This document shows, one piece after another, positions 14,819-53,500 of a stretch of 63,379 bases of DNA. Under the pieces are notes generated by a model. It saw only the letters and a list, made by a program, of their open reading frames with translations. It was not told the origin of the DNA and searched no databases. Source of the stretch: a virus; the IMG/VR virus record IMGVR_UViG_3300036770_002271, positions 1 to 63,379 of that record, one strand, 5' to 3'. The position numbers and the translations under genes are program-made. The stretch's first letter is position 1, and every line of letters begins with the position of its first letter.

Positions 14819-17575
14819 TTAAGTTCTCGCATACTTAACTAACTTATCCTGTAGTGACACTCCTGATTCTAATACAGTAATCATGGTATCTAATTTATCA
14901 CTTAGTTGTTCTTGTGATTTGATAAACATACTCATTAGATCACCCATTTCAGTATTTTTAGTCGAAGTTGCTGGTGATATTGCCTCAGGGAACACACTTT
15001 CTATTGGACTTTTGGTTACATTATCTTCAAGTTTACTTTTCAAATTTTCAACCATTTGATTGGTTAATACGTACTCATCATTTTTAAGTAATACTGGAAA
15101 ATCACCTAAGCTGCTTTTAAAGTATCCACCATTATGTGCGATTTCAACGTGAAAATGTCCACCTGTTGTTTTAGCTGTTTTATGAGCAAAGTATTCATCC
15201 AATACCTTATTAGCACCCATACCCATGAGTTGTTGTCTTATTTCTTCTGCCTCTCTAGCATCTTTAGGAGGCGGATTCATAGCAAAATCAAGAGCCTTTC
15301 CTATAGTGTGCTTACTTGTTTTTCTTTTTTCTTGGTGAAATTTATCGTTTAGTGAGGTAATTACAACACCAGGAAATGTTTCATTAATTTTATGAGCCAT
15401 AGCAATTAAGTTAGGATCAGCTTCTCCGCCACCTGTTCTTTCTTCACGTTTACCACCGAAATTTAGTCCTGCCAGCGGATCTCCTTCACGCTTTCTAACT
15501 TCAGCGCCCATATTTGCTATTCTTTCTTCTTTTGCTGCTCCTGCCATTGCCTGAACTCTAGATCCTGCTCCTTCAAGACCAACCGCACTTAATCCTTTAC
15601 CTAATAATGTTCCAATACCCTCTATACCTTTAGCAGCATAAATTTGAGCCTTATCAACCAAATCTGCTTTTTTCATTAGTTCGGCTTCTTTTTCAGCAAG
15701 TTTTGGATCTTTTTGTTTTTGTTGCTCTAGTGCCTTATTAGGGTCGGTCATTATTGCGCCTGCTGTAGCACCAAAAGTTTTACCGTAAGCTCCTGTTATT
15801 TCACCAAATTTATCTACAGCTTTTCCAAATTGATCTGAAGCATGTGACAAAGTTCCTGCTGAATTTTCATTTCTTATAGCATCTTCACGTTGACTTCTTA
15901 CCAAATCAACTTGTGTTATAGTTTGCTTATCTACAACTTCACGTTGTTGTTTTAGATAATCATCTAAACTTAAGCCCATTTTTTTGGCTTGTTCCGGGGC
16001 ATCTTTCAATCGTAAATAAAAATCGCTTGCTGTTCCAAAGCCCTCTGCCATAACACTTTTCACAGCATCAGCATTAAGTCTACCTACACTAGCAAATTGT
16101 TTTGCTTGATCTTTCATTTCTGTAGCTGCTAATACCATATTTTCTGCTACAGTTCCTTGCCCTTTACTAATTCGATCCAATAATTGTGGAGCACTTTGAA
16201 ATGTTTTTACTGCTTCAGGACTTGTCATTGCTTCACCAGCAGCAAAATATTTTGCTACTCCAGCTGCCATTCCTTTAGCACCAGCAGCATACAAAGATTC
16301 AGCATTTTTTAATGCTCTTTCTAATTTTTCTTTCTCAACAGCGTCTTGTTCATCTAACATAGCAGCACGTAATTCTTCAATTGCTAGTATTTGATTACGT
16401 GCCTCTTCTTGTTCTTTTCTTGTAGCTCCTGTTAATTCAGCAAGCTTATCCATTTCAATGATATAATTAAAAGCTGATTTGTTTAACTTTTCTTGGTCAG
16501 TAATTCTTGCTTTACCTAAACGTGCCTCAGTTGTTAAGAAAGAAATCATGCTTTCACGCTGATCAGCAGCAGTGATACCCATTGTTTCTAATGTTCTACC
16601 CAAATCACTTTTAATTAACGTGCCCGCATTTTTTACAAAACTTTTTAACCCTTCACTTGTACTAGCACCTAATAATTTTAATTCTTTACCTGCTCCTTTG
16701 ACAAGACCTGTGAACTCACTTACTTCAGCCATCGTCAGACCAAGTTCATTTAATTGTCTTTGTAGTTCTGTCATACCACCAGCACCAATCATGCTGGCTT
16801 TGCCTAATTCATTAAATCCTTGGAATAATTTATCCTTAAGTCCTGCTACTTGTGTGGCAAATTCTAGTGCTGTGTCACTTGCTTTAGCATATGCCTTAGC
16901 CCCTACTCCTAAAATAGCAGTTAAGGCTCCAAATGCCAATCCAACTGGGCCACCCATCACTGCCATAACAGCACCCAAGCCTATCGCAAAATTTCCAAGT
17001 TGATCAATTACACTATTAAATGCCTTTCCTACTTGCTCTGATTGTTTTGCTACAAGTTGTTGACCACGTTCTCCTGCTAATAAACTTTTTGTGTAATTTA
17101 CCTGAGCATCATATGCTGCCTTTAAAACCGTGATACCACCATCTACTATAACTCTCAATCCTTGTAATGCTACAGTTGCACCAATACCACCTCCAGCTAA
17201 CTGTGTTAACCTGTCTTGCATAACACTTAAGGCACCGTCAACACCTGAGGACGAATTCATTATCCCCCTAGCTATGTCACCCTGTTTCTTGGCATTGTCT
17301 AATACTACCTTAGTAGCATCTTCTTCTGCTTTCGTGCGCTTTTCTGTCGCATCGAGTGCCTTTTTTTCTGCTTCAGTAGATTTTTGTGTTAATTCTTTGT
17401 CATCTTGACCAAGTTTGTTAACTTGCTTTGTTAATTTGCCAAAGGCTTCACCTAATTTATCACTTTGAGTTTTAGTTGAGGTAAAACTACTACCAAGACT
17501 ACTACTAGTGTTGGTTAACTCACTGAATCGTTGATTTAATTCATTAATAGTATTGGGGTCTAAATTTTCAGCCAT
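14819..17575 (-). CDS. Tail tape measure protein with embedded M15-like peptidase domain
   Basis: 918 aa. Residues about 20-110 are coiled coil. About 190-240 is a Gly/Ala-rich hydrophobic region (IGLGAVMAVMGGPVGLAFGALTAILGVGA) of the kind found in tape measure proteins. A helical middle follows. At about 715-815 lies a domain with SKHTIGKALDF and GGHFHVE, the S-x-H-x-x-G-x-A-x-D plus H-x-H arrangement of zinc-dependent M15 (D-Ala-D-Ala carboxypeptidase/VanY-like) peptidases. It is followed by GGYFKSSLGDFPVLLKNDEYVLTNQMV, like the C-terminal segment of many tape measures. The protein would set tail length, enter the cell ahead of DNA and open peptidoglycan cross-links locally. It replaces the sheath/tube genes that precede gp20 in T4. 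The neighbouring divergent gp26/gp51 pair fits a tape-measure chaperone role. Confidence 0.83.
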   Translation of the reverse strand: MAENLDPNTINELNQRFSELTNTSSSLGSSFTSTKTQSDKLGEAFGKLTKQVNKLGQDDKELTQKSTEAEKKALDATEKRTKAEEDATKVVLDNAKKQGDIARGIMNSSSGVDGALSVMQDRLTQLAGGGIGATVALQGLRVIVDGGITVLKAAYDAQVNYTKSLLAGERGQQLVAKQSEQVGKAFNSVIDQLGNFAIGLGAVMAVMGGPVGLAFGALTAILGVGAKAYAKASDTALEFATQVAGLKDKLFQGFNELGKASMIGAGGMTELQRQLNELGLTMAEVSEFTGLVKGAGKELKLLGASTSEGLKSFVKNAGTLIKSDLGRTLETMGITAADQRESMISFLTTEARLGKARITDQEKLNKSAFNYIIEMDKLAELTGATRKEQEEARNQILAIEELRAAMLDEQDAVEKEKLERALKNAESLYAAGAKGMAAGVAKYFAAGEAMTSPEAVKTFQSAPQLLDRISKGQGTVAENMVLAATEMKDQAKQFASVGRLNADAVKSVMAEGFGTASDFYLRLKDAPEQAKKMGLSLDDYLKQQREVVDKQTITQVDLVRSQREDAIRNENSAGTLSHASDQFGKAVDKFGEITGAYGKTFGATAGAIMTDPNKALEQQKQKDPKLAEKEAELMKKADLVDKAQIYAAKGIEGIGTLLGKGLSAVGLEGAGSRVQAMAGAAKEERIANMGAEVRKREGDPLAGLNFGGKREERTGGGEADPNLIAMAHKINETFPGVVITSLNDKFHQEKRKTSKHTIGKALDFAMNPPPKDAREAEEIRQQLMGMGANKVLDEYFAHKTAKTTGGHFHVEIAHNGGYFKSSLGDFPVLLKNDEYVLTNQMVENLKSKLEDNVTKSPIESVFPEAISPATSTKNTEMGDLMSMFIKSQEQLSDKLDTMITVLESGVSLQDKLVKYART

Positions 17576-17608: not shown

Positions 17609-17638
17609 GCATACAAATATCCATATTCAGGAGATATA

Positions 17639-18460
17639 ATGATTAACCCATTAAAGCAATATTTTCGTCGTGCTTCCATTACCGTAAAACTACCAAGCCA
17701 AGGTAAATTCTATCCACCAGATAGTATTGATATGCCAGTGACTGGAGAATTGCCAGTTTATCCAATGACTGCTGTTGATGAGATTACAAGTAAAACACCG
17801 GATATGTTATTTAATGGATCCGCTATTGTAGACATTATAAAAAGCTGTGTTCCTAATATTAAAGATCCATGGCAAATTCCTAGTATTGATATTGACCCAC
17901 TAATGATAGCAATACGTTCGGCTACATTAGGTAATGAAATGGAAATTGAAAGTCAATGCCCAAGTTGTAATAATATAGGAAAGTATGGGATTAATTTAGT
18001 TAGATTATTAGGTTCATTGGAGCCTGGAAATTACGAACAACCACTACAGATTGACGAACTAAAGTTTAAATTTAAACCCTTAAAATATAAAACAGTTAAT
18101 GATACCAATATGAAACAATTTGATATACAAATTGAAATTAATCGTATAAGTGAAATTACTGATGAACAAGAAAAAATGAAGAAGTCAAGTGAAACTATGA
18201 AAAAGTTGAATATGACAACTTTCCAATTGGTAGCAGAAAATATTGAATACATTCAAACTCCAACCGAAGTTATTAATAATAGAGATTTTATCTATGAATA
18301 CGTCACCAATGTAGAAAAGAAAACATTTGATAAAATACGTGACCATGGAATAAATTTAAGAAAACATAGCGAAATTAAACCAATGAAAATTAAATGTGTA
18401 AACTGTAGTCATGAATATGAACAAGGTTTATCATTGAACGTTACTGATTTTTTCGGGTAA
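17639..18460 (+). CDS. 26: Baseplate hub / tail-assembly chaperone gp26-like protein
   Basis: 273 aa. Recognised as the T4 gp26 family (T4 'base plate protein') from VKLPSQGKFYPPDSIDMPVTGELPVYPMTAVDEITSKTPDMLFNGSAIVDIIKSCVPNIKDPW. It carries two CxxC knuckles, C107-C110 and C253-C256, a likely zinc site not seen in every relative. In T4, genes 26 and 51 are adjacent and lie just upstream of the gp27-gp28-gp29 (tape measure) group. Here the same pair sits head-to-head with the tape measure gene. The last codons GAT TTT TTC GGG TAA contain a T-TTT-TTC slippery heptamer followed by a 13-bp hairpin, and the -1 frame continues into a gp51-like extension. The protein is therefore probably made in a short form (273 aa) and a frameshifted long form (348 aa). 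Confidence 0.85.
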   Translation: MINPLKQYFRRASITVKLPSQGKFYPPDSIDMPVTGELPVYPMTAVDEITSKTPDMLFNGSAIVDIIKSCVPNIKDPWQIPSIDIDPLMIAIRSATLGNEMEIESQCPSCNNIGKYGINLVRLLGSLEPGNYEQPLQIDELKFKFKPLKYKTVNDTNMKQFDIQIEINRISEITDEQEKMKKSSETMKKLNMTTFQLVAENIEYIQTPTEVINNRDFIYEYVTNVEKKTFDKIRDHGINLRKHSEIKPMKIKCVNCSHEYEQGLSLNVTDFFG

Positions 18461-18498
18461 AGCTTCTGAATAGTAAGCCACAAGATATTCAGAAGCTT
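18448..18498 (+). promoter_or_regulatory. Programmed -1 ribosomal frameshift signal
   Basis: Slippery heptamer T TTT TTC at 18448-18454 in the gp26 frame, 5-nt spacer (18455-18459), then a perfect 13-bp stem AAGCTTCTGAATA (18460-18472) paired with TATTCAGAAGCTT (18486-18498) around a 13-nt loop. The gp26 stop TAA (18458-18460) touches the stem base. Heptamer, spacer and stem all fit the classical -1 frameshift design. The -1 frame stays open for 76 more codons. Confidence 0.85.
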
Positions 18499-18684
18499 AT
18501 AGATGGATTTGAAAATGAGGCAAAATCCATAAAGGAAAATGCTATAAAATTATGTTGGTATATGAGAGGTGGTATTAGTTATACTGATATTCTTAATATG
18601 AGTCCTTTTGAAAGAGAAAGTATAACCAAACTCATTGAATCTAATTTAGAAACAACTAAAAAGACGGGATTGCCTTACTTTTAA
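18454..18684 (+). CDS. 51: gp51-like extension, reached by -1 frameshift from gp26
   Basis: Codons run from CGG at 18454 to the TAA at 18682-18684 (76 residues plus stop), in the -1 frame relative to gp26. The peptide is charged and helical; the part AIKLCWYMRGGISYTDILNM, then NLETTKKTGLPYF, is the pattern of gp51-type baseplate assembly proteins in T4-like phages. The frame has no ATG before 18562, leaving only 40 codons from there. It also has no GTG or TTG start after the last upstream stop (18445-18447), and no ribosome-binding site. Expression as a C-terminal extension of gp26 through the frameshift signal is thus the simplest reading. It mirrors the G/GT tail-chaperone pair of lambda-like phages. 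Independent initiation at CTG (18466) cannot be excluded. Confidence 0.8.
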   Translation, partial: RVKLLNSKPQDIQKLIDGFENEAKSIKENAIKLCWYMRGGISYTDILNMSPFERESITKLIESNLETTKKTGLPYF

Positions 18685-18727
18685 AGACGAACTTCGTTCG
18701 TCTAAGTCCTTCACTACGTTCGGACTT
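18685..18727. repeat. Two adjacent hairpins after gp26/gp51
   Basis: First stem AGACGAAC/GTTCGTCT (18685-18692 with 18696-18703, loop TTC). Second stem AAGTCC/GGACTT (18704-18709 with 18722-18727). No T-run follows on the plus strand; on the minus strand the first hairpin is followed only by TTTAAAA, a weak terminator at best. They may form one edge of the structured region that follows. Confidence 0.6.
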
Positions 18728-19091
18728 AACTTTACAAGGAGATTACTTGCCGCTAGGATGTCCATGGTAGTGCTATTCAGCACTACCAAGTTGACTTGCC
18801 ATGCCCGTCAATCCATGTTGTCTTTGCCCATACATACAGCCTTACTGCTTATGTATCCTACCGGTTGCCCTGTAAAGTTTATGGCCTGTAGTGAAGCTAA
18901 TGTCAGTTATGACACCTCTTCGGCAACGCACATCCTATAACATCAAGACAAAATAGTTATAGGCTTGTTGAGTGTTCGCTTTGTCGATTGCACTCTCGGT
19001 ATATTGAGGATATCCCCCTACTCCAGTTCCGTCGGCACAGCACTATCTGTACTTCCTCAAGGAGGGTCGAAGACTTCGACCAAACAAATTT
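18685..19091. ncRNA. Candidate structured non-coding RNA region, family unknown
   Basis: The only gene-free stretch over 300 nt in the window, between convergent genes. By eye it is richer in G+C than its surroundings and dense in strong stems: TGGTAGTGCT/AGCACTACCA with loop ATTC (18765-18788); ATACATA+CAG/CTG+TATGTAT with a 2-nt bulge (18830-18856); TTGAC/GTCAA (18791-18811); TGTCA/TGACA (18901-18914); CCTATAAC/GTTATAGG (18934-18963); GAGTG/CACTC (18970-18995); long-range TTGAGGA/TCCTCAA (19004-19060); GGTCGAA/TTCGACC (19065-19081). It has no convincing reading frame. I could not match tmRNA, RNase P, SRP, 6S, or group I or II intron signatures. The strand is undetermined. Alternatives: a decayed mobile element or a bidirectional terminator cluster. 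Confidence 0.5.
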
Positions 19092-22513: not shown

Positions 22514-22574
22514 ACATTGAGGATCGCGGTACTGGAATACCCACCCTCTCTATGATTTGAAAGGAATCACAGCA

Positions 22575-23210
22575 ATGATATTTATAGAAAATAAATATAC
22601 AGTTATCTATTACAAGATAATTGAAAGAAGTAAAAATAGAAATCTTGAAGGTTATACTGAAAAACATCACATTATTCCTAAAAGTTTAGGTGGTACCAAT
22701 GATAAAACTAATTTGGCAATTCTAACAGCTAAGGAACATTACATTTGCCATATACTTCTCACAAAAATGACTTTTGGAGAAAATAAAATTAAAATGCTTC
22801 ACGCAGTAAATTCATTTATTTCATGGGCATCCAACAAACACAAAAGAAATTTTAAATTTAATTCAAGATTGTTCCAAATATTAAAAGAAAAAAGAAGTCA
22901 TTTTTTGAAAATTGAAATGTCAAAACCTGAAAATAAAAAGAAATCAAGTGATGGCGCTAAAAAATTATGGGCTGATATTAATTACAAAAAAGAACAATCC
23001 AGTAAAAGAAAAGAACTTTGGAAAGATGTTAATTACCAAAATAAAATGAAAAATCGTAAAAAAACTACTAAAAGAATTTGTGTTAATAATGTAGAATTTT
23101 TATCATTAAAAGATGCTGCTTACCATCTTAACTTAGATCCTAGTACTGTATCTAAAAGGTGTTCTAGTCATCATATCAGATTTGCTGAGTGGAAATATAT
23201 AAGAGATTAA
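22575..23210 (+). CDS. Free-standing HNH homing endonuclease
   Basis: 211 aa from ATG 22575, which has an AAGGA ribosome-binding site 9 nt upstream (an in-frame TTG six codons earlier is not preferred). The HNH core is EGYTEKHHIIPKSLGGTNDKTNLAILTAKEHYICHILL (about 25-62), with the paired His, the Asn and the EHYICH helix. A Lys-rich linker with a repeated 'KLWADINYKKE / ELWKDVNYQNK' element follows, the NUMOD-like pattern of phage homing enzymes. The C-terminal CVNNVEFLSLKDAAYHLNLDPSTVSKRC is a helix-turn-helix DNA-binding module. The gene is inserted on the opposite strand between gp47 and gp55, 3 bp from the gp55 stop. Such genes spread by cutting the matching locus of related phages lacking them. 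Confidence 0.88.
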   Translation: MIFIENKYTVIYYKIIERSKNRNLEGYTEKHHIIPKSLGGTNDKTNLAILTAKEHYICHILLTKMTFGENKIKMLHAVNSFISWASNKHKRNFKFNSRLFQILKEKRSHFLKIEMSKPENKKKSSDGAKKLWADINYKKEQSSKRKELWKDVNYQNKMKNRKKTTKRICVNNVEFLSLKDAAYHLNLDPSTVSKRCSSHHIRFAEWKYIRD

Positions 23211-35528: not shown

Positions 35529-38500
35529 ATGAGAATAAGAACATTAAACTTTTTACCAGAAGTATTTCACACTCCAACTAATGCTCAATTTTTAAATGCT
35601 ACGTTGGATCAACTTGTTAATCCACCAGTCACACAAAAGATTCAAGGATATATAGGAAGTAAATTAGGGTATGGGATTAATGCTAAAGATTATTATGTAA
35701 CCGAACCAACAAAAGTTCGTACAGACTATCAATTAGATCCTGGTGTTGTTTTTACAAAGAAAAATGAAAGCACAGCATATGACTTTTTAAGCTATCCAGG
35801 TATTATTGATAGTTTAAAATTACAAGGTGGTATCACAAATAATAATAGCGACTTATTCACAAGTGAAATTTACAGTTGGGATAGCTTTACAAATTTAGAT
35901 AAACTAATTAACTTCAATCAATATTATTGGTTGCCGTTTGGACCTCCAGCAGTTACAGTAGCAAGTGATATTGTTTATAGTGAAACTGATTATGTTGTAA
36001 CTAGCGAACCTAATAATTATAACATAAGAATTGAATCAGCAAGTACAGGTAGTGATAATCCTACCATTACATTATTGCGTGGTGGTACATACACATTTAC
36101 TGTTGACCAAGCATCACAATTTTTTATTCAGGGTCAACCTGGTGTAACAGGATATAGTATTACTCAACCTAATCTATCTACAAGAGACATTTTAGGTGTC
36201 ACTAATAATGGCGCTAATGTAGGAACAGTTACCTTTAATGTGCCATTAAGCACAGCACAAAATCAATACATACTACCTGGATCAAATACTGTAGATGTAA
36301 TTTCCACTGTGCCATACGCAAATGTAAATGGTGGAACTTTAAGTAGCATTGGTGGTAGTATAGATGGTGTAACAAGCTTAAATGGACTTACTGTAATGTT
36401 TTACAATACAGGCGTTACAGATCCATTAGAAACTACAAACTTTTACACAATTACAACATCAGGTAGTCCAAGTAATCCTACACTAACATTAACACCAAGC
36501 ACAGCTATTCCTTCCAACCAAAAGATTACAGCTAGTTTTGGTACTGTATACAATGATAGAAATTTTTACAAAAGTACAGGCGGGACAATTGAGTTAATAC
36601 CATATATTAGTGCTAATTTAGACACACTTTATTATCAAGACGGTAGTGTTGCCAATCGTGTTGGTGTGATTAGAATTATTGATAGTAATTTACTAAACAT
36701 AATCAATGTTAATGAAGATATTTTAGGACAAACGAATTATACCTCACCAAATGGAGTAATTTTTACAAACGGGTTAAAGGTAGATTTTGTTGGTGATATA
36801 ATACCTAGTTCTTATGCCAATGGAACATATTATGTTGAAGGTGTGGGAACAGGAATACAACTTATTCCAACTGACTTGTTAGTGAATCCTGAACCATTTA
36901 CAACAAGTGCCTTTATTCCATATGATACAACACCATATGATATTGGTAATTATGATACAGATTTGTTTATACTAAGCAACCAAGATTACATCACCATAGC
37001 AAGAAATTCATTAAGTTATAATCCATGGAGCAGAAGCAATCGTTGGTTTCATATAGAAGTCATAAATGCTACAGCAGAATACAATAATGACCCCAATATT
37101 GTAACTGACTATGCTACATATAATAACAAAGCTAAAAGACCTATTATTGAATTTTATCCTAACTTAAAATTGTATGAGTGTGGCTCTGTAGCGAAAAATC
37201 CAACCGATTTTATTGATTTACGCACAACAGACGCCTTTAGTTTAGTCGCAGGACATGAAAACTATTATCCTGACGTTAATGTATATACTGCTTATGATTG
37301 TACAATCAATGGTGTAGTAAATGGAACATCAACAACAATTAATATTCCTAGCTCAGGAGTTGTTGGTACGTTTGTAATTGGACAATACATAGCTGACTTA
37401 TATGAAGCAGGACCATCAACCAGCCCACCACAAATACCAGATACAGCACAAATTACAGCAATATCAGGGTTAGGTACAAGTACAATTACTCTAACAATAA
37501 ATTGGACAGGCAACACAACTATTACCACTGTAAATAATGCCAGCATTATTGCTACAGAAGAAACTGTTAACAACTACGCATTATTTGAAGGTTGTAGAGT
37601 TATCTTTAATAACGATACTGATAATATTTCAAATAAAATTTATGTAGTTACATTTGCTGAACTTACACCAGGTGGCACTCCAGTTATATCGCTAACAGAA
37701 GCACCAGATGGTCAAGTTGAAAATAATAATCAAGTTGTAATTTTACGTGGTGCTAATAATATTGGTAAAAGTTATTATTACGATATAGATATTTGGAAAT
37801 TAGGTCAACAAAAAACAAATGTAAATCAAGCACCATATTTTGATGTTTTTGATAGTAATGGTATAAGTTTTGGTAACACAGATATTTACATTGGTTCAAG
37901 TTTTGCTGGTTCAAAATTGTTTGCCTATGGAATAGGATCAGGACCAAATGATATATTACTTGGTTTTCCTATACAATATAGCAGTATAGACAATCCAGGA
38001 GACATAAGTTTTGATGTTGTTATTAATTCACAAACATTTGATTATGTAACAGGATCAACTCCGATTACGCAAAATATTAATACGGGTTATGTTTATAATT
38101 ATAGTTCATTAATTGATTATACTAGAATGTTAGGATGGCAAACTTGTGTGTCACCTAGTGTACAATATCAAGTTTTTGAATTCAATTATTTTGCTGACAA
38201 TCCAACTAATATTTTTACTTGTGATGTACCAGCATTGACAACTACAGAAACCAATTGGCCTGTTGTAAAAGTTTTTATTAACAATGTTTTCCAAGAACCA
38301 ACTAATTATACATATAATATAAGTGGTAATAACACTATTGTAAATCTAACTGTAGATGGATTAATTGATACTGTAGTTCAAGTATTAGTATTAAGCAATG
38401 AAGTAAGTGAAAATAGCTATTTTACTGTACCTTTAAATCTAAGCAACAATCCATTTAATACAAATATAACAACAGCGAATATTGGTGACATACGTTCACA

Positions 38501-41500
38501 ATATTCAACTATTTTTATGAACAATCCAAATATGACAGGGGTTATGTTTGGCAGTAATAATTATAGAGACTTGGGAAATTTAGTACCATATGGTAATGCT
38601 ATCATTCAAAATAGTAGCCCATTAACAAGTGTCGGAAGTTTCTTAAGATTACAAAATCACAATATATTTGACAGTTTACAATTTAACAGTCGTGAATATG
38701 TGAAGTTCAAGACTTTATTAATTGACACAGTAAATCAAATTGTTAATGAACAAAATTATACAGCAAGCACATATTTAGATGATGCCCTTGATATTATTAC
38801 CAGCACAAAAAATCAAGAACAACCTTTCTTTTGGAGTGACATGCTTCCAAGCAAAGCTCCATATTTGTCACGTTCATATACATTTAATAATGATTTAGAG
38901 ACAAGTATTTTTCCATTGTCAAGAGTCTATGATTTTTCTAAAGCAAATTATAATGGTGTATTAGTTTATGTTAGTAGAATAGTAAGTGGTACTGTAATTC
39001 AATTACAATTAATAAAGGGTACTGATTATGTAATAAGCACAGACTCACCCTCACTAACAGTATCATTTGATTTGTTAGCAGGTGATATTGTTACAATCAA
39101 TGAATATAATCAAACATATGGAAGTTATGTTCCTAACACTCCAACTAAGTTAGGATTATATCCTAGTTTTATTCCAACAGTTATATTAGATAGTACCTAT
39201 ACTCAACCAACTTACTTCATAATTGGACATGACGGATCATATACAAAAACATATGGAAATTACAATACTACATTGGGTGTATTAGAAGATTTCCGTGATC
39301 AGGCTTTATTAGAATTTGAACGTAGAATTTACAACAATCTAAAATTAAGTCAGACAATACCAGTTAGTGAATATGAAGTTGTTCCTGGATATTTTAGAAC
39401 TACTGATTTAACTTGGGCAGAATTCTTAGAAATTTATAGTAAAAATTTCTTAGATTGGGTTGGACAAAACAGACTAGATTATAAGTCACAATACTATGAC
39501 AATAATAATCAGTTTACTTATAATTATAGTGATAGTGGTATTAGATTAGATAACAAGCCTATATTACAAGGATATTGGCGTGGTGTTTATGAATATTTCT
39601 ATGATACATCACAACCAAATACAAGCCCTTGGGAAATGTTGGGATATACAAGCCAACCTAGTTGGTGGACAAGTGTGTATGGACCAAGTCCCTATACAAG
39701 TGATAACTTAGTATTATGGGGTGATTTAGCAAATGGTTATGATTACAATAATGGAAATCCTGTAATACGAGAAGAATTTATTAGACCAGGATTATTAAAT
39801 GTATTGCCTGTTGATAGTAACGGAAACTTGGTAAGCCCATTAAGTAGTATTGTTGGTAATTATACAAGTAACACATTTCAACGTGAATGGAAAGTTGGTG
39901 ATGATAGTCCAGTTGAATTAAGTTATCGTCGCAGTAGTACATGGCCATATGACTTAATGCGAATATTAGCATTGACCAAACCTGCTAAGTTTTTTAATCT
40001 AGGTATAGATTTAGACAATTACTTATATAATACAGAATTTAATCAATACTTGGTAAACAATAGAAGTCACTTGGTTTTAGATGATGTAGAGATTTATGGT
40101 TCAGGGGTTGCTAAAACAAGTTATATTAATTGGATCGTTGATTACGAAAAACAATTAGGAGTAAATGCTACAACTAACATAACTGATTTATTATTTAATT
40201 TAGATGTTCGTTTAGTCTATCGAGTAGCAGGATATAGTGATAAAACACTATTAAAGTTCTATGTAGAAAAGGGAAGTCCGAACAGCACAAATGCCTCATT
40301 ATTAATACCAGATGAAAGCTATAGCGTTTTATTATATGAAAATCAACCATTTGATAGAATAATTTATACAAGTATTATTATTCAACGAGTAACTAATGGT
40401 TATGCTGTATATGGTAATTCACAAAACCGTGCTTATTTTTCAACACTAAGTCCAAAATACGATGGATTTTATGATAATATTACAGTTGAAGGTTTAAGTG
40501 CTAAGATCACTAAAAACTTTACAACACCAGAACAAGTCGTACCATATGGATATATTTTTAATACCGTACAAGAAACCTCACAGTTTATAGCAAACTATGG
40601 TAGTTGGTTGATTGAAAAGGGTATGATATTTGATCAAATTGAAAATGGTGTAGAAATTAATTGGCGTCAAATGATTGGAGAGTTTTTGTATTGGGCTCAG
40701 ACAGGATGGGATGTGGGAAGTATCGTCACATTAAGTCCTGCTGCAACACAAATTAAAATAGACCGAGATAGTTACATTGTACAACCTTTGACATTACAAC
40801 AATCAAATTTTATTTTAAATCAAAGCTTGTATCCAATTCAAAATATAGACTTATCAATAGTTCGTGACCAAACATTGTTTAATGTTCAACCATTGAATGA
40901 AGGAGATTCATTAAGTTATGGACAGTTTAATATCAGCAACTTTGAACATGGTATAGTATTTGATAATACAACTGTATTTGATGATAGAATTTACAATTTA
41001 GTAACTGGATTACGTCAAAATAGAATTTTAGTAAAAGGTGTTAAAACTGCCGAATGGAATGGCACTGTTACAGCATCAGGATTTATATTAAATCAAGACA
41101 ATATAACAGAATGGCGTACAGCAATTGCTTATACAAAAGGTCAAATTGTAAAATACAAAAACAAGTATTGGGTAGCACTTAAGAAAATTGAACCAAGTAG
41201 TGTGTTTAATGAACTAGATTGGAAAGAAACAGATTACAACGAAATACAAAAAGGTTTGTTACCAAACAGTAGCACACGTAGTTACGAAAGTAGTATATAT
41301 TACAACATTAATGAAGCTAACTTAGAACAAGATGCGGACCTATTAGGATTTAGTTTAATTGGATATAGACCAAGAGATTATCTAGCTTTAGTTGATTTAA
41401 CTGATACAGCACAAATAAATGTTTACAGAAACTTTATTCGTAATAAAGGTACAAGAAATAGTTTAGATGCCTTTAAAGGAGCAAGATTACCACAAGGTGG

Positions 41501-44500
41501 TATTGATTATGACATTTATGAAAATTGGGCTATTAAATTACACAGCTTTGGCGGAACATTAAACGATAACTTTGCTGAATTTAGATTACGTCAAAATTTA
41601 CTAACAGGCAATCCAAGTATTGTTAGTTTGACAAATGGTATTCCTACAATTGGTTCACAACAGGAAGTACCGTTATATTCATTATTCAATTATGGCAGTT
41701 TAATTACTAATCCAAACATATTACCAACTACAGATAATTACACACCACAGATTTATCCTAGTGCTGGTTATGTTAACTTTAACGATGTAAAAATGTCTAG
41801 TTATTTTTATAACGGACTGCCTACTGCTGTAAACGAAGCAGGTGTAATTGTACCAATAGAAGACTTTTATGTTAGAGATTATGTTTGGTTAGCAAACTTT
41901 TTAGGTACATGGCAAGTATATACTTGGCAACCTTTAGGACAAATTATTTTAGCCCGTGGTAATAACGACGGGACTACTACAATTCGTTTTAGTAGTCCAC
42001 AAAACATACCTTTACTAACACCAATTGCTATTGTTAATTTTAGTTCACTTGTAGATGGTTATTATATTGTAACAAGATTAGTTAACAATTCTGAAGTTAT
42101 CATTAATCTAACATTGGACATAAATTTAGGTCAAGTAACGGGATATGGCGTTGTAAGTAAGTTCGCAAGTCAACGTGTAACACAACCAAGTGATATTATT
42201 AATTTACCTTTACTTAATGCTGAATTCATTAAAAACACAGTATGGGTAGATGAAGACACAGATGGCAACTGGAGTGTTTATAGAAAAGGTATTAACTATA
42301 CATTTGATAATGAAAAGACAAAAACAAATAGTGATAATTTTGGTAGTAGTGTAGCGTTTACAACGACAAGTGGTTATTTAATAGGTGATAGTGGATTAGG
42401 TGAATTATATCGTTACACCTATAATATTATACAAGATGATTATGAGTTATCTGAAACTATCACAGAGAGTGTAAGTTTTGGAACTGCCATAACTTACACT
42501 GATAATTTTTATTTTGTAAGCGAACCAACAAGTGGTAGTCCAAAGGTATATGTTTATGTAATTAATGATAGTACAGAAAGCACAGATTTAATTCAATTAC
42601 AAACACTTACAGCATTAGGTGGTTCAACAAATTACGGAGCAAGTTTATCTATTAGTAATGATAGAAAATGGTTGTATGTTGGTGCTCCTGATATTAATCG
42701 TGTTTATGTTTATAGACAACAATATATTCCATTGTCAGCAGGATATTTTGTTAATGGCGAAGTATATACTATAACAGAAGTTGGTACTACTGATTTTACA
42801 TTAATAGGGGCCTTGGAAAATAAAATAGGTATAACATTTGTAGCAACAGGGATAGGTAGTGGTAATGGTACAGCAACTCAAATCAGTTATGAGTATAGTA
42901 CCTATCTTGATGGAAGTATTTTAGGTGACAATTACGGAATTACAGTTAGTACTGATTATTATGGTGATACATTAGTTGTAGGAGCCCCAAGTTACGATCA
43001 AAGTATCTCTGCTACCAATTGGGGTAGAGCTTACATGTATCATAGAACTGTTCAAAACATTGAAGTCCAAAGTAATAGTTATGGAGGATTACCTCAACTA
43101 TTTTCATTAGGTTGGACACCAGCAAAAACAACTGTAAGTGTTACGAATACAACAGCAACAACAAATTTAGTTACAATTAGTAATACAGCTGGTTTAAGCG
43201 TGAATGATCCAATCATATTTACAGGTACAGGATACGGATCAAGTTTATTAGAAACAGAAAAAGTTTATTATATTAGTTCTATAAACTCAGGTGCTCCAGG
43301 TACAATCACATTAAAAACAAGTAGAACAACAAACACTAATGTTACATTGAATACAGAAACAATTGGATCAGGTACAGCTTATATACAAACAACTCCATTA
43401 TATGTTACAGTAAATGGTAGATTAGTACAAGACAATAACTATGCTGTAATTAGCACTAATACTTTTGTATATACAGGAGATGTTTTAGCTGGCGATATTA
43501 TTAATGTAAGTGATAACATCTTTACATTATTACAAACATTTGAAAGTGAAAGTACTCCAAGACCAGGTGTACAATTTGGTATTAGTGTAGGTGTAACAAG
43601 AACAAGTAATGAAATAATTGTTGGAGCACCATTTGAAATAAGTTCACAAAACAGTGAAGGTGTTGTATATCGTTATACAAATGGTGGTGGTCGTTATGGA
43701 GTTATTATTGGTACTGATGAATGTTACATCACTGTACCTAGAAAAATGTTTATTAATGGATTCTTAGTTATACTACCAGTTGGAGATGTTAATACAACTG
43801 TAAATGCAATTAATTCAACACAAGTACCAAACGTACAAGCCTCAGCCACAACAGATGGAAAACTAATAATCAGTGTGGTAGATCAAAACTTATCAGTGCC
43901 AAACGAAAAATTATTAGTAAGTGTTATTGATATTGTTACATTGGATGAATTAGGTTTTGAAATTTATACAAAAACACAAACTGTATTATGTCCCCATTTA
44001 ATTGGAGCAAGTCAATTTGGAAGTGTAGTAAAATTTAATGAATTTGATAGTTTTGTAGTAAGTGCTCCAGTAGGAACACGCTACTCATTTACAACATTTG
44101 ATTTTACAGATGATGAAAATTTTGAAAATGATACAGTATTTGACAATAATGCCACACAATTTGTAGACATGTTACCAAACGCAGGAGCTGTTTACATGTT
44201 TGATTATTTACCTTCTTACAATGAAAGTTTAAGTAATGTAGGTAATTTTGTATATGCTCAAAGTTGTAATGATACCAATCAAAATGTTGGGTCTTTACCA
44301 AGATATGGGTTAAGCTTAGATTTTAATGAATACAAAGTAATGGTAGGATCTCCTTACTATCAGCCAAATATAACAAATGGTCAAGTTGTTATATATCAAA
44401 ACAACGTTGGAATAAAAGATTGGAGTATTTACCGTAGATCAAGTAGCGTTGTTGATATCAACAAAATGCAAAATTTACAAATCTTTAGTGCTGAAACTAA

Positions 44501-47500
44501 TGATACATTAATTAATTTAGATTATTTTGACCCACTACAGGGCAAGTTATTAGGTGCTGTTAGAGAAAATTTAGATTATGTAAGTAATGCTGATCCTGCT
44601 AACTATAACAGTTTAGACAATACTCAAAGTGGTTTAGTTTGGGGTGCTAACAAAGTTGGCTTATTATGGTACAATACAAGTAATACACGTTTTGTAAATT
44701 ATCATCAAAATGATGTTGTTTATAATAGCAAATATTGGGGAAGTGTGTTCCCAGGAAGTAATGTTACTGTATATAGTTGGGTAGCTAGTAATGTTATTCC
44801 TAGTGAATATGAAGGACCAGGCACACCATTTGACATAACAAAATATACAACTCAAGAAGTATTAAATGCTAGTAACTTGTTAAGCCCAGTTTATTACTTT
44901 TGGGTTAGAAATACTAATGTTATTTTTAGAAAAACTAATAAGACATTAGCTGATAGTGTGATTGAACAATATATTAACTCACCAATTAATTCGGGTATAA
45001 GCTATCTTTCTCCGTTGTTACCTAATACATTTGGATTATATAATTGCCAAAGTTATTTTGATGCCAATGACAGTGTGTTACATATAGGTTATAGTACAGG
45101 TACAAGCAGTGATGTACCACATAATGAATATACATTGATTAGAGCAAATTATGCTGATGACTTTTTACCAGGTGTTCCAACATTTGGTAGTACAGAAAGA
45201 CCTACAAGTTTATATGATAGATTACTAGATAGCCTGTGCGGTGTGGATGAAGAAGGTGGAGTTGTACCTAACCCATTCTTACCATTAGCAGTACAATCAG
45301 GAATATTAGTAAGACCAAGACAAAGTTTCTTTTATGATAGATTCTTAGCACTTAAAAATTATCTACAATATGCCAACACAATTTGTAAACAATTTCCAAT
45401 TTTAGAAATAAGAACACCAAGTTATTTGTATACAAGTGGTCTTTATTTTGATACACAAGATTATTGGACAAAAATTACATGGTGGGCTCCTGGTTATGAT
45501 GATAATACAAAGCCAGCATTACAGGTTAACTTCTATGCTGATTTAAGCACATTGAATGTTAATACAGGAACAGTTGTTGCTGTTGGACAAAACAACGGTA
45601 GCCAAGAATATTATGTATATGGTACAGATAGACTTTGGACACGTATTGGGCTACAAAATGGAACCATAGAATTTAATAGCACACTATGGGACTATGCGGA
45701 AGCAAAATTAGGCTTTGGGGATAATTTCTTTGATACTAGTTTATATGATGAGTACCCAAGTGAGGAAACACGTTACATAGTTAGAGCATTAAACGAACAA
45801 ATTTATATTGATGACTTATTAGTTTTTAGAAATAAGAGTTTAATATTATTATTTGAATATATTCAAAGTGAAACAACTGAGTCACAAAATTATTTACCTT
45901 GGTTGAACAAGACAAGTTTGGTTGATGTATCACACAAAATACGAGAACTATTACCCTTCGAAGTTTATCAAACAGATAATCAAGATTTCTTAGCAGGTTA
46001 TTTAAATGAAACTAAACCATATCACGTTGTAATTAAAGATTTCTTATTCACTTATACAGGTACAGATGTATACGAGGGAGATATAACAGACTTTGATTTA
46101 CCAAGTAGCTACAATAGTAACTTCGCAACATTTATAAGTCCACAGCTTGTTTATAATAGTGTAATAGGGGATAACCAATATCTACCAAACAATTCAATTT
46201 GGACAAATAATTTATATTCACAATGGTTTAATAATCGTGGAGTAAGTTTAACAGGTGAAACAAATTATCAAATTACAACATTAGCAGTATATATGACTTT
46301 AGGATCAACTGTAATCGTTGTTGATAATGCGAGCGGTTTTCCAGTAAACGGTGTCATCACTATTGGCACTGAAAAAATTGTTTATAGTAATGTTGATAGA
46401 GCCGCAAATATACTTAGCAATTTACAACGTGGGTATAATGATACAGATATTCAATATCATTTACCTGGTGAATTAATTTATATTGATTTACCACCTGTGC
46501 TTTTATTGAATAGTGGTAGAGATTATACTGAACCACCAAAAATAACAGCATATATTGATACAACAATTTATCCTGAACCACTACAACTAGCGGTATTAGA
46601 GCCAGTAATGAGTTTGGATAAAGTTATAGATGTTAATGTAATTAATCCAGGTCAAGGCTACGCAGTGTTACCTGAAATTCGTATTGATCCAAGTCTAGTT
46701 ATAACCTTTAGTAGTGTAGATGTTAACCTGTTATTAAACACAATACGTTTATTTGCTCCAACACTAGTAACAGGAGATTTAGTACAATATAAAGTTGGAA
46801 CTGGAACAAGTATAGGTGGCTTGGTTAATAGTGCTTGGTATTATATAAATTTACTGGAAGATAATCCTAGTCCAATCATAGCATTATACACATCATATGG
46901 CGATGCTGTAAATAATCGTGATAGAGTTGTATTTTCTAATGCAGGCACAGGTTCTGACCACACATTAAACTTAGGAGCAAGAGCTTCAGCCATATCAACC
47001 AGTTATCCAATACGTGAAATTGATTTGACTTTGCGTTATGATAGAACAACATATACAACACAGGTTATAGATTGGCGTCCAGGTGAATATTACGGAGCTT
47101 TCTATGCTGGACGTTATAGCAATAGTGAAAATATAGCGAGCAGTTCTATTACATTACAAAGTGTATTACCACCAATCAATACTATATTAGCAAGTGCTCA
47201 GGGTGTAGCTTTTGAAATTGTAGAAGTAACTAATGATAGAACAATAGATTATTCAAATTTTGTAAGAAATGTTTTAGAAACAGTTGACGTTGGATCAGGT
47301 GTTGCCGAAGACCGTTATCTAGTAAGATTGACCTATGACTATAATGATCCAAACGCACCTGGATCTACAATTGGTTTCACAGTAGGTATGCCAGTTAAAT
47401 TTATTGGTTTGGCAATAGGTGGATTAGTTGCTGATACAACATACTATGTTAAAAAAGTAATTAACAATAGTGATTTTAGTATTTCTTCAACTCAATTTGG

Positions 47501-50500
47501 AAGTGCTTTAACATTAACTAATGCTAATGTAACCCCAGCTGGGCTAGAATGTTTTACAGCACAAATTATAGACCAAGGCATAATTACAGTAAATTATCCA
47601 AGTATTGTAGAAGTAACAGAAACATTTGCTAATACCAATAAATTATTAGCACCAATTAGTGCCATAGGAACAGGTGGAACAAGTGGATTATATACAAACA
47701 TTAGTATTACCTTTACTGGAAATGTGTTTGGTAATATCGTTGAAAATGAAATTTACTATGTGACTAGTGTAGCTGATAGTGAAACTTTCACCATAAGTAG
47801 AACGCTTGATCCAATTACAACAACACTAACAAATACCAATACTTCAAACATAATTACAGTAGATAGCACTACTGATTTTAATTTAAACGATCCAATTATT
47901 TTTAATCAAATGGTTATTACAGTTGGTAATTTTGTTATTGGACAAAAGTACACAATATTAACATTAGGTAACACTGATTATACAGTATTAGGTGCTAAGG
48001 AAAATTTACGTAGTTTAGAATTTATAGCTACATCAACAGGATTAGTAACAGCAGGAAGCTTTGTTCCTGGCAAACAATATGTTATTCAATCGCTTGGAAC
48101 TGTATTATTTAACGCAGGAAGCTTTGTTCCAGGAAATGCCTATGAAATTGTAAGTGTCGGCACAACTGATTTTACATTAATTGGGGCAGCAAATAATAGT
48201 GTTGGTACTATATTTACAGCAACAGGAGTTGGGTCAGGATCAGGTACAGCAAATTATATAACTGATTTTACGTTGATTGGTTCAAGTGAAAACGTTGTCG
48301 GAGCAACATTTATAGCTACAGGCTTTGGAACAGGTCCAGGTACTGCCACACAAGGATCAGGTACAGTGGCAGTAACAAGTTTTGGTAATATCAATCAAGG
48401 TACTGTTTATTATGTTCAGAACATTTTAAATTCTACTCAACTGAAAATAAGCACAGTTGTTAATGGATCAGAACTTACGTTAAGCAATCAAACAGGTACA
48501 GCAACATTAATTAACCAAAAAGATGTTGTTCAATTAACAAATGCTACTGGATCAATGAATATGAATGTTTCATTACCAGTAAGTCCTGGTCAAGTAAATG
48601 GTCAACTGTTCACACTATATCAAACATCAGGACAATATCCAAGTATTAGTTCAGGAACAGTTAGTAATTTAATTTCACGTACAATTAATGCTACATTAGC
48701 TACAGTAGATAAAATAGCATTACGTACACCAAGTAGAATTTTGTCAGCTACAAGTAATTTTTATTACAACATGCCTTTAGTTGTAGATTCAAATATTGGA
48801 AACTTAACAACAGGGATAATTTACTATGTGATTGAATATACAGGTAGATACGATAGTAATACAGATACAACAACACCTGGGTTACAAGTTACTGTTACGA
48901 CTGTATCAGGATCAGTATTGACTTGTGATGATACAAATAATTTATATGTTGGAATGCCAATTATCTTTAGTGGCAATGGCATAGGAAGTGTAGTTATAGA
49001 CCTAGAATACTATGTACATAGTATCATAAATGGTACACAATTTAGATTAAGTAACACAAATGGTGGTACTATAGTTACTTTTGTATCAGGTGTTGGATCA
49101 ATGATAGGTACAGGTGATGATTTTATTCAAGTTAGCACATCAATTATAAGCCCAACTGTTGTAACTTTATCTGATGCTGACGGACCTAGCACAATAGAAC
49201 AAACAACTACAACAATCACACCAGCATCATTTGATGTAAGTTATACATTGGGTGGTTATCAAGTAGTAATTAGTGATCAAGGAAGTGGTTATGCTGTTAA
49301 TAATACTGTAACTATCCCAGGTAATTTAATTGGTGGTGTTACAACAACAAATGACTTAACAATTGAAGTAAATTCAATAGGTACAATGGGAGAAATTACT
49401 AGTGTCATTAAATTGGGCACGCCTGCTGGTAATGTCAATCAATACTACTTAAAAGTTATTAGTATAAATCAATTTGAACTTTATAGTAACAAGCAACTAA
49501 CGATTCCTGTAAGTGGACTAACACTTCCATATGAAGGATTTACAAGTTCAACTGTTACAGGAGCTACTAGTAGCGTGTTAACAATTGATACTACAGGGTT
49601 CAATGAATATGATAGTGTGGTATTTACTGGGTCAGTTCCAAATGTGATTACTGAAGGGTATACATATTATCTTTATAATGTTACTCCTACAACAACTCAA
49701 ATTACAACTATTCCAAATGATATAAGTTCAATTGTTGGAAGTATAACATTTACGTCAGATTTTACAATGGCTAAGGCAGGAAGTTTTGCTTTACTTCCTG
49801 AACCATTTAGTTTTAATCGTAGTATTGTTAGATACAATAATAAAGTATGGGAATGTATTGTAAGCAATAATGATGATGACTTTGTATTTGGTAAGTGGGT
49901 AGAATTAAATTCAGGTGATAGAAAGTTAAACGCATTAGATAGAGCATTTGGATATTATCAACCAACTGATAATATGCCAGGTAGAGATTTAACACAAGCA
50001 TTCACAGGACTTATATATCCAAACACAACTTATTTAGGAAATGCTTTTGCTCCTGAAGACCAATATAATATTGATACATTTTTACAAGATCAGCCATTTT
50101 ATCCAACAGATATTGATAATGTAGCGATTACAAATAATGGAACAATTTATTTGGGAGCTGCCAATACAAATGAATACTCAGGATTAATTACTAGTACTAA
50201 TACAACATCATGGGAAGCTAATGGATTAACATCATTACCAATTGGATTCACAGATATTATATATGCTGGTGGCTATTATATTGTTACAACGACAAATACA
50301 GCTACACCAATTTTTTATAGCTCAAATGGAACTGTTTGGACATCAAGTGGAGCATTTACTCCCTATAGTTCAACTCCATATGATGTAACACCTTGGGACG
50401 TTTCAGCACTTAGTGTGCCAGCAGACAGTTTAAATAGTGTTGGGTACAAATCAAACACTTGGGTAGCAGTAGGTTCAAGCATTGTTACAGCAACTAATGT

Positions 50501-53500
50501 AAGTGTATGGAATACTACATTTACATTTACTACATACACCAACACATTGTATGGTGTAAATGGTGTAACAACAACTGGTTTTAATGGTTTTATTGCTGTT
50601 GGAGCAGGACAAGAAGCTACAGGTTCAGGAGTAATAAATTGTAACGTTATAGTAACTAGTCTAGATGGACTTACTTGGACTAGATTGGGATATGTAAGCC
50701 TTAAAGGATTTTACGGAGTAAGTAGTAATGGCACAGTAGCAGTAGCAGTAGGTGAAGATGGGGTCATTTATAATTCTCAAAATGGTAGCGATTGGTATGG
50801 AATAAATGAATCAACTATACTAAGTGTAAATTCTGTTAGCGATACACTTATTGTTGACAGTACCATTGGAGTTAATGTAAATGATGTAATCAGATTTAAC
50901 AACTCATTTAGTAGTATTACAACAGGAACAAGTTATTATATTGTTGCTATACCAACATCAAATCAAATACAAATTAGTACAAGTTTAGGTGGTCCTGTAT
51001 TAACACTGACTGCTGGTACACCTAGTGATAATACATATTATTTCACTTACCCTACTACCGATACATTATATGATATAAGTTACGCAGGTGGTGTTTTTGT
51101 AACTGTTGGTGACAATGGTTTAATTAGAACGAGCAGTGATGGTATAACTTGGACAACAAGAACTTCAGGTACTACAAGAGATTTGCGTGGTATCACATAT
51201 AATTCAGGTATATGGATAGTAGTTGGACTTAATAATACTATTTTAAAGAGTACAGATAATGGTATTACATGGACAGATGTTTCATCATTTATTACAGAAG
51301 ATCCAGCTTACACTGTAAAAGGAGATAGTTTCTTATCAGGTTACGGCCCAGAAGAACTTGTTCCAGGTGTAGTAAGTGATAACCTTACAATGATTGTTAA
51401 TACACGACCTGGCACAAATTGGAGTGCTACAGAATATCAAAATGTAGGATATAATGTTGTAAGTATTGAATTTACACCGACCCCGTCAAATCAAGTTACT
51501 TATAGCTTTGACGAAATAGTTCAAGTTCCAGCACAGGTTGCTTTATTTGAGATTGTTAGTGCATCGGGATTATCAACAAGTTTATATGAAACATTAGATT
51601 ACACAGTAAATTGGATTAATAATACTATTACTTTAAATAGTTCATTACCTGTAGGTAATAAACTTAGACTTGATGTATATGAGGTGGGTAACGGAGATCA
51701 ATTAGTAAAATCAAATACTAAGATTGATCCGTTATTAACAAATAGTGTAACTGGCTTTAATGAAATTGTTTTAAATTGTAATTATAGCGAAAACATTTAC
51801 TTAGGTAGTGGTGTTCTTAGAACTGGAAGTAGTGCTATTGAAGAAACTGCTACACAAACTGATAGCGTTGATAATACAATTGTTGTTGGTGATGCTAGCA
51901 AATTTACATTGAACTCACCAATTTATTTTCAAGGTACGGTATTTGGTGGCATTGTTGCTAATAATACATATTATGTTAAAACAATTAGTATAGTAACTAA
52001 TAGAATTACTGTGTCTAGTACCTTTAATTTAATATCAGGTTTAGCTGGACCCACACTTACTGTAACAGATGCTACAGGAAGTATGACAGTAATTATACGT
52101 ACAGGAACAGGTAGTGTATGGACAGAACCTTACGTGGCACATAATGGGACAAAATTAATATTAGGTAAAACAGGTACGGTTAATGCTACAATTGCTGCTA
52201 CAGATACAGTTGTAGTCAATAGTACAGGTGGTATGGTAGCAGGAACACAAATAGTGTTTAGTAGCACGATGTTTGGGGGTGTTTTAACACCACTTACACC
52301 ATATAACATTTTAGTTATTGTAGATGGTAATGAATTTCAAATTGAAGACCCAAGCAGTCCAGGAAATCCATTAGCATTGACCGATAGCTCAGGTGGGGCT
52401 AGTTTTGTTAGTGGAGACTACAGCATAGCATTGGCAAGCAATGGAGTTAGTGCTAAATTAATATTCGCCGATGCATATAATGTTTCAACAGATTATTTGG
52501 TATACAGTGTATTTGGAGAAACAGAACCAGAACAATATGGTTACACAATACCTGAAACACAAGTATTTACAGCAACAGCTGGACAAACTGTTTTCAATTT
52601 AGATAATTTTGTTGGATATAATAATATTACTGATGCTATAGTAGAAGTTGACGGGTTACGTGTAAGTGATACATTATATACAATTGATTTTGTTTTAGAA
52701 ACATTAACATTTGGATCAGGATTAACTCTTGGTCAAATTGTTGCTGTAACAACTTATAATGATACGTTTAGACAATATCTAAACACACAATTTGACATAA
52801 CCAATAATTCTGTAGTTAACGTAACTAATGCTGTTTTAACAGTTGTAAGTCCTACTCCATATAGTGCTTATGTTACAGTAACCGTATCAGCACTACCACA
52901 AGTAAACGGAGTAGCAATAACAACAGGAGATGTCGTAAGATTTGCTGAATGTGTTGGAGCAGACCAATTAAATGGTCAAGCATTCTATATTGATAATATT
53001 GTAGGAAACACTTTTAGAATTTACACAGGTATATCAGGTGGTACACCAGTAGATCCTGTGAGCTTATTAGCAACATATATATCAGGTGGAGTATGTTGGA
53101 TAGACAGAACCTTCACATTAACAACAACTGTGGGAACAAGAACATTCAGTGCTAACAATAGAATATTAGTAAACAACACTGATAACTTAGTTGCTGGAAC
53201 ACCAGTATACTTTACACAAACAGGAAGTACATCAGGTGATATATTGCCTGGTGGATTAATTGATAGCCAAGAATATTTTGTATTAGAGGTTGCTCCAATT
53301 GTTACAATGGATGAAATTGTAACAAATGAAGTATACACAATTGAGGCACAAGGTATTCTAACTGATGCTGTAGAACTTGAAACAGGTAGAATTTATCAAA
53401 TCGTAACCATTGGAACTACAGACTTTACATTAGTTGGAGCAGCAAGTAATACGATTGGTATATACTTTACAGCAACAGGAGCAGGAACAGGAACAGGAAC

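Follow-up and report, generated by a model that had tools for sequence, protein, structure and literature searches.

T4 has been described as an exception to the frameshifted tail chaperones of long-tailed phages (PMC5009743). Vladimirov, Gautam & Davidson 2022 (Virology 566:9-15) reportedly identified the tail assembly chaperone (TAC) genes of T4-like phages; passages citing that work report that the arrangement in some T4-like phages is instead one short gene plus one long gene encoding the fusion (PMC10885494), and that poly-T slippery sequences occur in the TAC-N genes of T4-like phages (PMC12846349, 2025). Frameshifting is mentioned neither in the RaK2 paper nor in a jumbo-phage overview. 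The first-pass annotation of the locus described here knew of no published description of such a fusion in T4-like phages; judging from these reports, the phenomenon is partly published, and its breadth, the clade-specific stem and the missing annotation may be new. The locus comparisons give good support to a family-wide -1 frameshift signal, of an already known kind, in a putative tail assembly chaperone gene.

The window is the whole stretch of DNA analysed, the 63,379-base virus record IMGVR_UViG_3300036770_002271 (positions 1 to 63,379). It encodes T4-type genes for the major head protein, prohead protease, portal, an SbcD-like nuclease, tail lysozyme/hub and a baseplate wedge protein. 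One uninterrupted ORF in its virion-protein region spans 6,380 codons (35529-54671), and a 217-aa ORF on the plus strand (22557-23210), with a stretch resembling HNH homing endonucleases (HHIIPKSLGGTNDKTNL; motif recognized by eye), is inserted beside a gp47-like gene on the opposite strand. The features of the locus are as follows:

14819-17575, minus strand: 918-aa product, probably the tape measure protein, its gene divergent from (head-to-head with) the gp26-like ORF; from conserved position.
17639-18460, plus strand: gp26-like ORF, 273 aa, predicted short tail assembly chaperone (TAC-N); from PF12322, PHROG 150 and AF2/Foldseek.
18448-18454, plus strand: slippery heptamer T_TTT_TTC (X_XXY_YYZ), in the gp26 frame; kept in 97/97 loci.
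18455-18459, plus strand: 5-nt spacer, GGGTA; from the sequence.
18460-18472, plus strand: 5' arm of a 13-bp stem; from the minimum free energy (MFE) fold, synonymous-recoding z and pair counts in the clade.
18486-18498, plus strand: 3' arm of the same stem; from the same three sources.
18454-18684, plus strand: -1 frame extension, 76 codons long, which opens with R (CGG, 18454-18456) and has its stop at 18682-18684; predicted to be the C-terminal domain of a long, gp51-like chaperone (TAC-NC); from a 55-locus alignment, codon-position bias, hhalign and AF2.

The reading preferred here, with a probability of roughly 0.92, is that a programmed -1 frameshift in this gene would yield a short and a long tail assembly chaperone (TAC-N and TAC-NC).

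The gp26-like ORF is preceded by an AGGAG Shine-Dalgarno sequence at about 17629-17633. Its product matches PF12322 (T4_baseplate) above the gathering score (4e-18, 66.3 bits, cut-off 24.5) and PHROG 150 (baseplate hub, 1e-16). Its AF2 model (pLDDT 91) is similar to predicted T4-like baseplate hub (assembly) proteins by Foldseek (E 5e-23); searches of PDB gave no match by fold and no credible relative by sequence. Two CxxC pairs (C107/C110, and C253/C256 just upstream of the slip site) are invariant in all aligned gp26 relatives and are probably a zinc site.

The neighbouring 918-aa protein has no family match of its own in Pfam or PHROG. In Erwinia phage pEa_SNUABM_47 the gene in the same position is annotated as a putative tape measure, in RaK2 its product is recorded as resembling a tape measure protein, and most relatives have a tape measure or structural annotation for the neighbour of gp26, with Atu_ph07 and XacN1 as exceptions; this conserved position on the opposite strand supports the head-to-head pairing with the tape measure gene that had been proposed from the window alone. 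Residues ~740-850 of the probable tape measure protein (SKHTIGKALDF...GGHFHVE) resemble an M15-type peptidase motif, and its PHROG endolysin match is weak (E 0.13).

A tblastn search with the gp26-like protein hit 63 phage records, and every one inspected belongs to a jumbo T4-type phage. The records compared (RaK2, PBECO4, GAP32, CBB, PA5oct, Munch, Atu_ph07, Phosso, SCTP-2, XacN1 and others) have 23-33% protein identity to the window. A scan of IMG/VR found at least 570 relatives; the best 80 of them, together with the window and 16 jumbo-phage records, make up 97 loci.

The gp26-like ORF ends ...GTT ACT GAT TTT TTC GGG TAA, its 0-frame stop occupying 18458-18460. The T-TTT-TTC that the first-pass annotation had placed in the correct frame is exact to the base, and a slippery heptamer is in phase at the 3' end of gp26 in all 97 loci (including the best 80 of at least 570 IMG/VR relatives), as TTTTTTC in 96 and TTTTTTT in one; it is retained down to 23-33% protein identity. 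Elsewhere in the upstream codons of 67 dereplicated genes (18,172 codons), T_TTT_TTY occurs in frame only three times. The codon preceding FF ends in T in every one of the 67 dereplicated loci, though eight different codons and different residues are used, and the 0-frame tail beyond the slip site varies among loci from 1 to 11 residues. The heptamer is present as well in a very distant 595-kb metagenomic phage genome, where the -1 frame has a similar YPINERKYIIHKFIEQKE end. Inspection of the upstream sequences by eye showed no conspicuous Shine-Dalgarno-like stimulator in any clade.

A single uncultured record could, taken alone, contain a sequencing error, and a frame break of this sort could also mark a decaying pseudogene; this explanation, whose probability is negligible, is already refuted by locus comparison, the frame relation being identical in the 97 loci (16 public phage records and the best 80 of at least 570 IMG/VR relatives among them) and codon-position constraint being found in both frames. 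Transcriptional slippage on the T6 run, adding a base in some mRNAs, would generate the same fusion without ribosomal shifting: the homopolymer run exists, and one extra T gives an identical product. This is very unlikely, for 66 of the 67 dereplicated loci have a run of exactly six, with no drift toward longer runs, the phase fits X_XXY_YYZ in all loci, and a stem lies 5-6 nt downstream in the window's clade, as in ribosomal shifting. RNA polymerase slippage usually needs runs longer than six.

Ribosomal frameshifting would bring into use a -1 frame that re-reads the final C of the heptamer as part of CGG (18454-18456). The chance of 76 open codons in one sequence of this base composition is about 0.004, and the aligned extension is 69-79 aa in all 97 loci (with the IMG/VR relatives again represented by the best 80 of at least 570), mostly exactly 76; on contig L033 it is cut at 35 aa. 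Nearly all loci begin the extension with FF-R-x-x-L-L, from which XacN1, PA5oct and Atu_ph07 depart slightly. Across 210 pairs of 5-30% divergence, substitutions at the three -1 codon positions number 120/103/256 in codons 0-5 and 1743/723/3939 in codons 36-75, and past the extension stop they are flat (2683/2566/2638 in 210 pairs); because pairs and loci are phylogenetically non-independent, these and the other counts are descriptive and are not probabilities. From the first codons on, the extension is constrained as coding sequence of the -1 frame; the sequence beyond its stop is not. Its AF2 model is all-helical (pLDDT 83); the structure prediction proposed for the 76-aa part by the first-pass annotation produced this model, and the fold search with it returned no match.

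On the 3' side of the -1 ORF are about 400 nt (18688-19090) devoid of a convincing gene and apparently higher in G+C than their surroundings, which open with two perfect hairpins (GACGAACTTCGTTCGTC; TAAGTCC...GGACTTA). This stretch had no match by blastn against phages and nothing above the gathering score in Rfam.

The extension might instead be a separate small gene whose translation is coupled to that of gp26, through re-initiation at the gp26 stop or close to it. An ATG overlaps or just follows that stop in several cultured relatives (e.g. loci L006, L007 and L009), where a separate hypothetical protein is annotated. In the window the earliest ATG, GTG or TTG of the -1 frame is codon 36 (ATG, 18562), leaving a 40-codon remnant, just as had been noted at the outset, and PA5oct has no usable early start and none in its whole extension. 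No ATG precedes codon 18 in 45 of the 67 dereplicated loci, and a start with a Shine-Dalgarno sequence occurs in the first 20 extension codons in only five, versus 57 of 67 for gp26 itself. R-x-x-L-L is conserved upstream of most such starts, and re-initiation leaves the heptamer unexplained. The codon-position bias, which includes codons 0-5, the T-ending codon before FF and the scarcity of Shine-Dalgarno starts are evidence against a separate gene, which is very unlikely. Present annotation of the extension varies: most of the inspected public records of cultured jumbo phages list it as a hypothetical protein of its own, that of Atu_ph07 has a 40-aa remnant of it, and those of RaK2 and PA5oct leave it out; no joined CDS was found in the inspected regions of these records.

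A stem downstream of the heptamer would be a second element of the frameshift signal. In the window the 5-nt spacer and the perfect 13-bp stem have exactly the coordinates first assigned to them, and the MFE fold of the sequence is this stem (-16.6 kcal/mol; z -3.6 versus dinucleotide shuffles, 0 of 200 of which are as stable; z -3.7 versus synonymous recoding). In the window's clade, delimited on the gp26 tree after stems had been seen, the mean z versus synonymous recoding is -2.9 (18 lineages, 16 of them below -1.3), compared to -0.7 in lineages outside it, and the stem lies 5-6 nt 3' of the heptamer. Stem pairs are formed in 73% of cells in the clade (slid controls, 32-49%), and none of 500 shuffles reaches its covariation score; the number of doubly changed pairs is matched by 222 of 500 shuffles and so is not in excess, and RNAalifold gave no consensus stem for the clade. 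The stem therefore rests on individual folds and synonymous constraint, which lend moderate support to its being a likely clade-specific stimulator. On the gp26 tree the strong stem is confined to the window's clade and is weak or absent elsewhere, and with the recoding z this led to rejection of the stem as a family-wide feature. Of the joint conservation of heptamer, spacer and stem that the first-pass annotation had suggested examining, the universal heptamer and the maintained -1 frame were found and the stem is limited to one clade; thus the three elements do not seem to go together across the family.

PF12322 covers residues 1-206 of T4 gp26 and residues 1-201 of T4 gp51, and a C-terminal extension beyond it is present in T4 gp51 and not in T4 gp26. 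By hhalign, the -1 extension is related to this C-terminal extension of gp51 (probability 91%, pairwise E 1.2e-6, 33 columns); the single-sequence match of the extension to PHROG 634 reaches only 0.013. As the PF12322 domain is shared by gp26 and gp51 and the -1 extension matches the C-terminus of gp51 only, the frameshifted fusion as a whole, rather than its last 76 aa, would correspond to gp51, and the short product to gp26. The first-pass annotation's fusion of gp26 and gp51 thus holds in that the 76 aa are related to the C-terminal extension of gp51, and fails in that gp51 is not a separate domain. An independent gp51 domain fused to gp26 was rejected, gp51 itself containing the gp26 domain. 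The further proposal that gp26 and gp51 are tail-chaperone equivalents is supported as well.

We infer frameshifting itself, its efficiency and the chaperone function of the products as follows. Most ribosomes would stop at 18460 and release the short chaperone (gp26 = TAC-N), and in a minority the two Phe tRNAs on T_TTT_TTC would shift back by one base, aided in the window's clade by the stem 5 nt downstream. Slipped ribosomes would read the -1 frame and produce the long chaperone (TAC-NC = T4 gp51), whose additional C-terminal domain is modelled as all-helical. If the two products act like lambda gpG/gpGT, the domain common to both would bind the tape measure protein, the product of the head-to-head neighbouring gene, and the extension would bring in tube or hub subunits.

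It is conceivable, as a tentative extension of this reading, that the whole jumbo T4-type lineage makes both tail chaperones from one gene, the frameshift being older, the gp26 and gp51 of T4 having arisen by a duplication that replaced it, and the stem having been added later in one clade. If the frameshift is indeed ancestral in jumbo T4-type phages, its breadth and the direction of evolution would be undocumented so far.

The TAC genes of Vandenendeviridae and Andersonviridae (PMC12846349) resemble that of the window in having a conserved -1 frameshift with a poly-T site at the end of TAC-N, a -1 frame that is open in all genomes, and a second ORF mis-annotated as a hypothetical gene; unlike the window, they belong to other myovirus families and have a GTTTTT motif. 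The window's products may be likened to lambda gpG/gpGT as tail assembly chaperones, but the heptamer T_TTT_TTC differs from the lambda site, the gene is on the strand opposite to the tape measure gene and head-to-head with it, and a stem is present in the window's clade. In Synechococcus phage S-PM2, gp26 and gp51 are not annotated within 8-124 kb. The gp26 and gp51 genes are separate and divergent in Acinetobacter and Aeromonas phages and in tandem in Klebsiella phage KM3. T4, whose gp26 and gp51 have a domain homologous to that of the window's ORF and whose gp51 ends in an extension that is related to the one in the -1 frame, encodes the two proteins in separate, full-length, divergent genes, whereas the window has one apparently frameshifted gene. 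T4 relatives that retain the predicted frameshift across many jumbo genera help to explain the T4 exception, and they provide natural comparisons in which the control of the short-to-long chaperone ratio could be examined.
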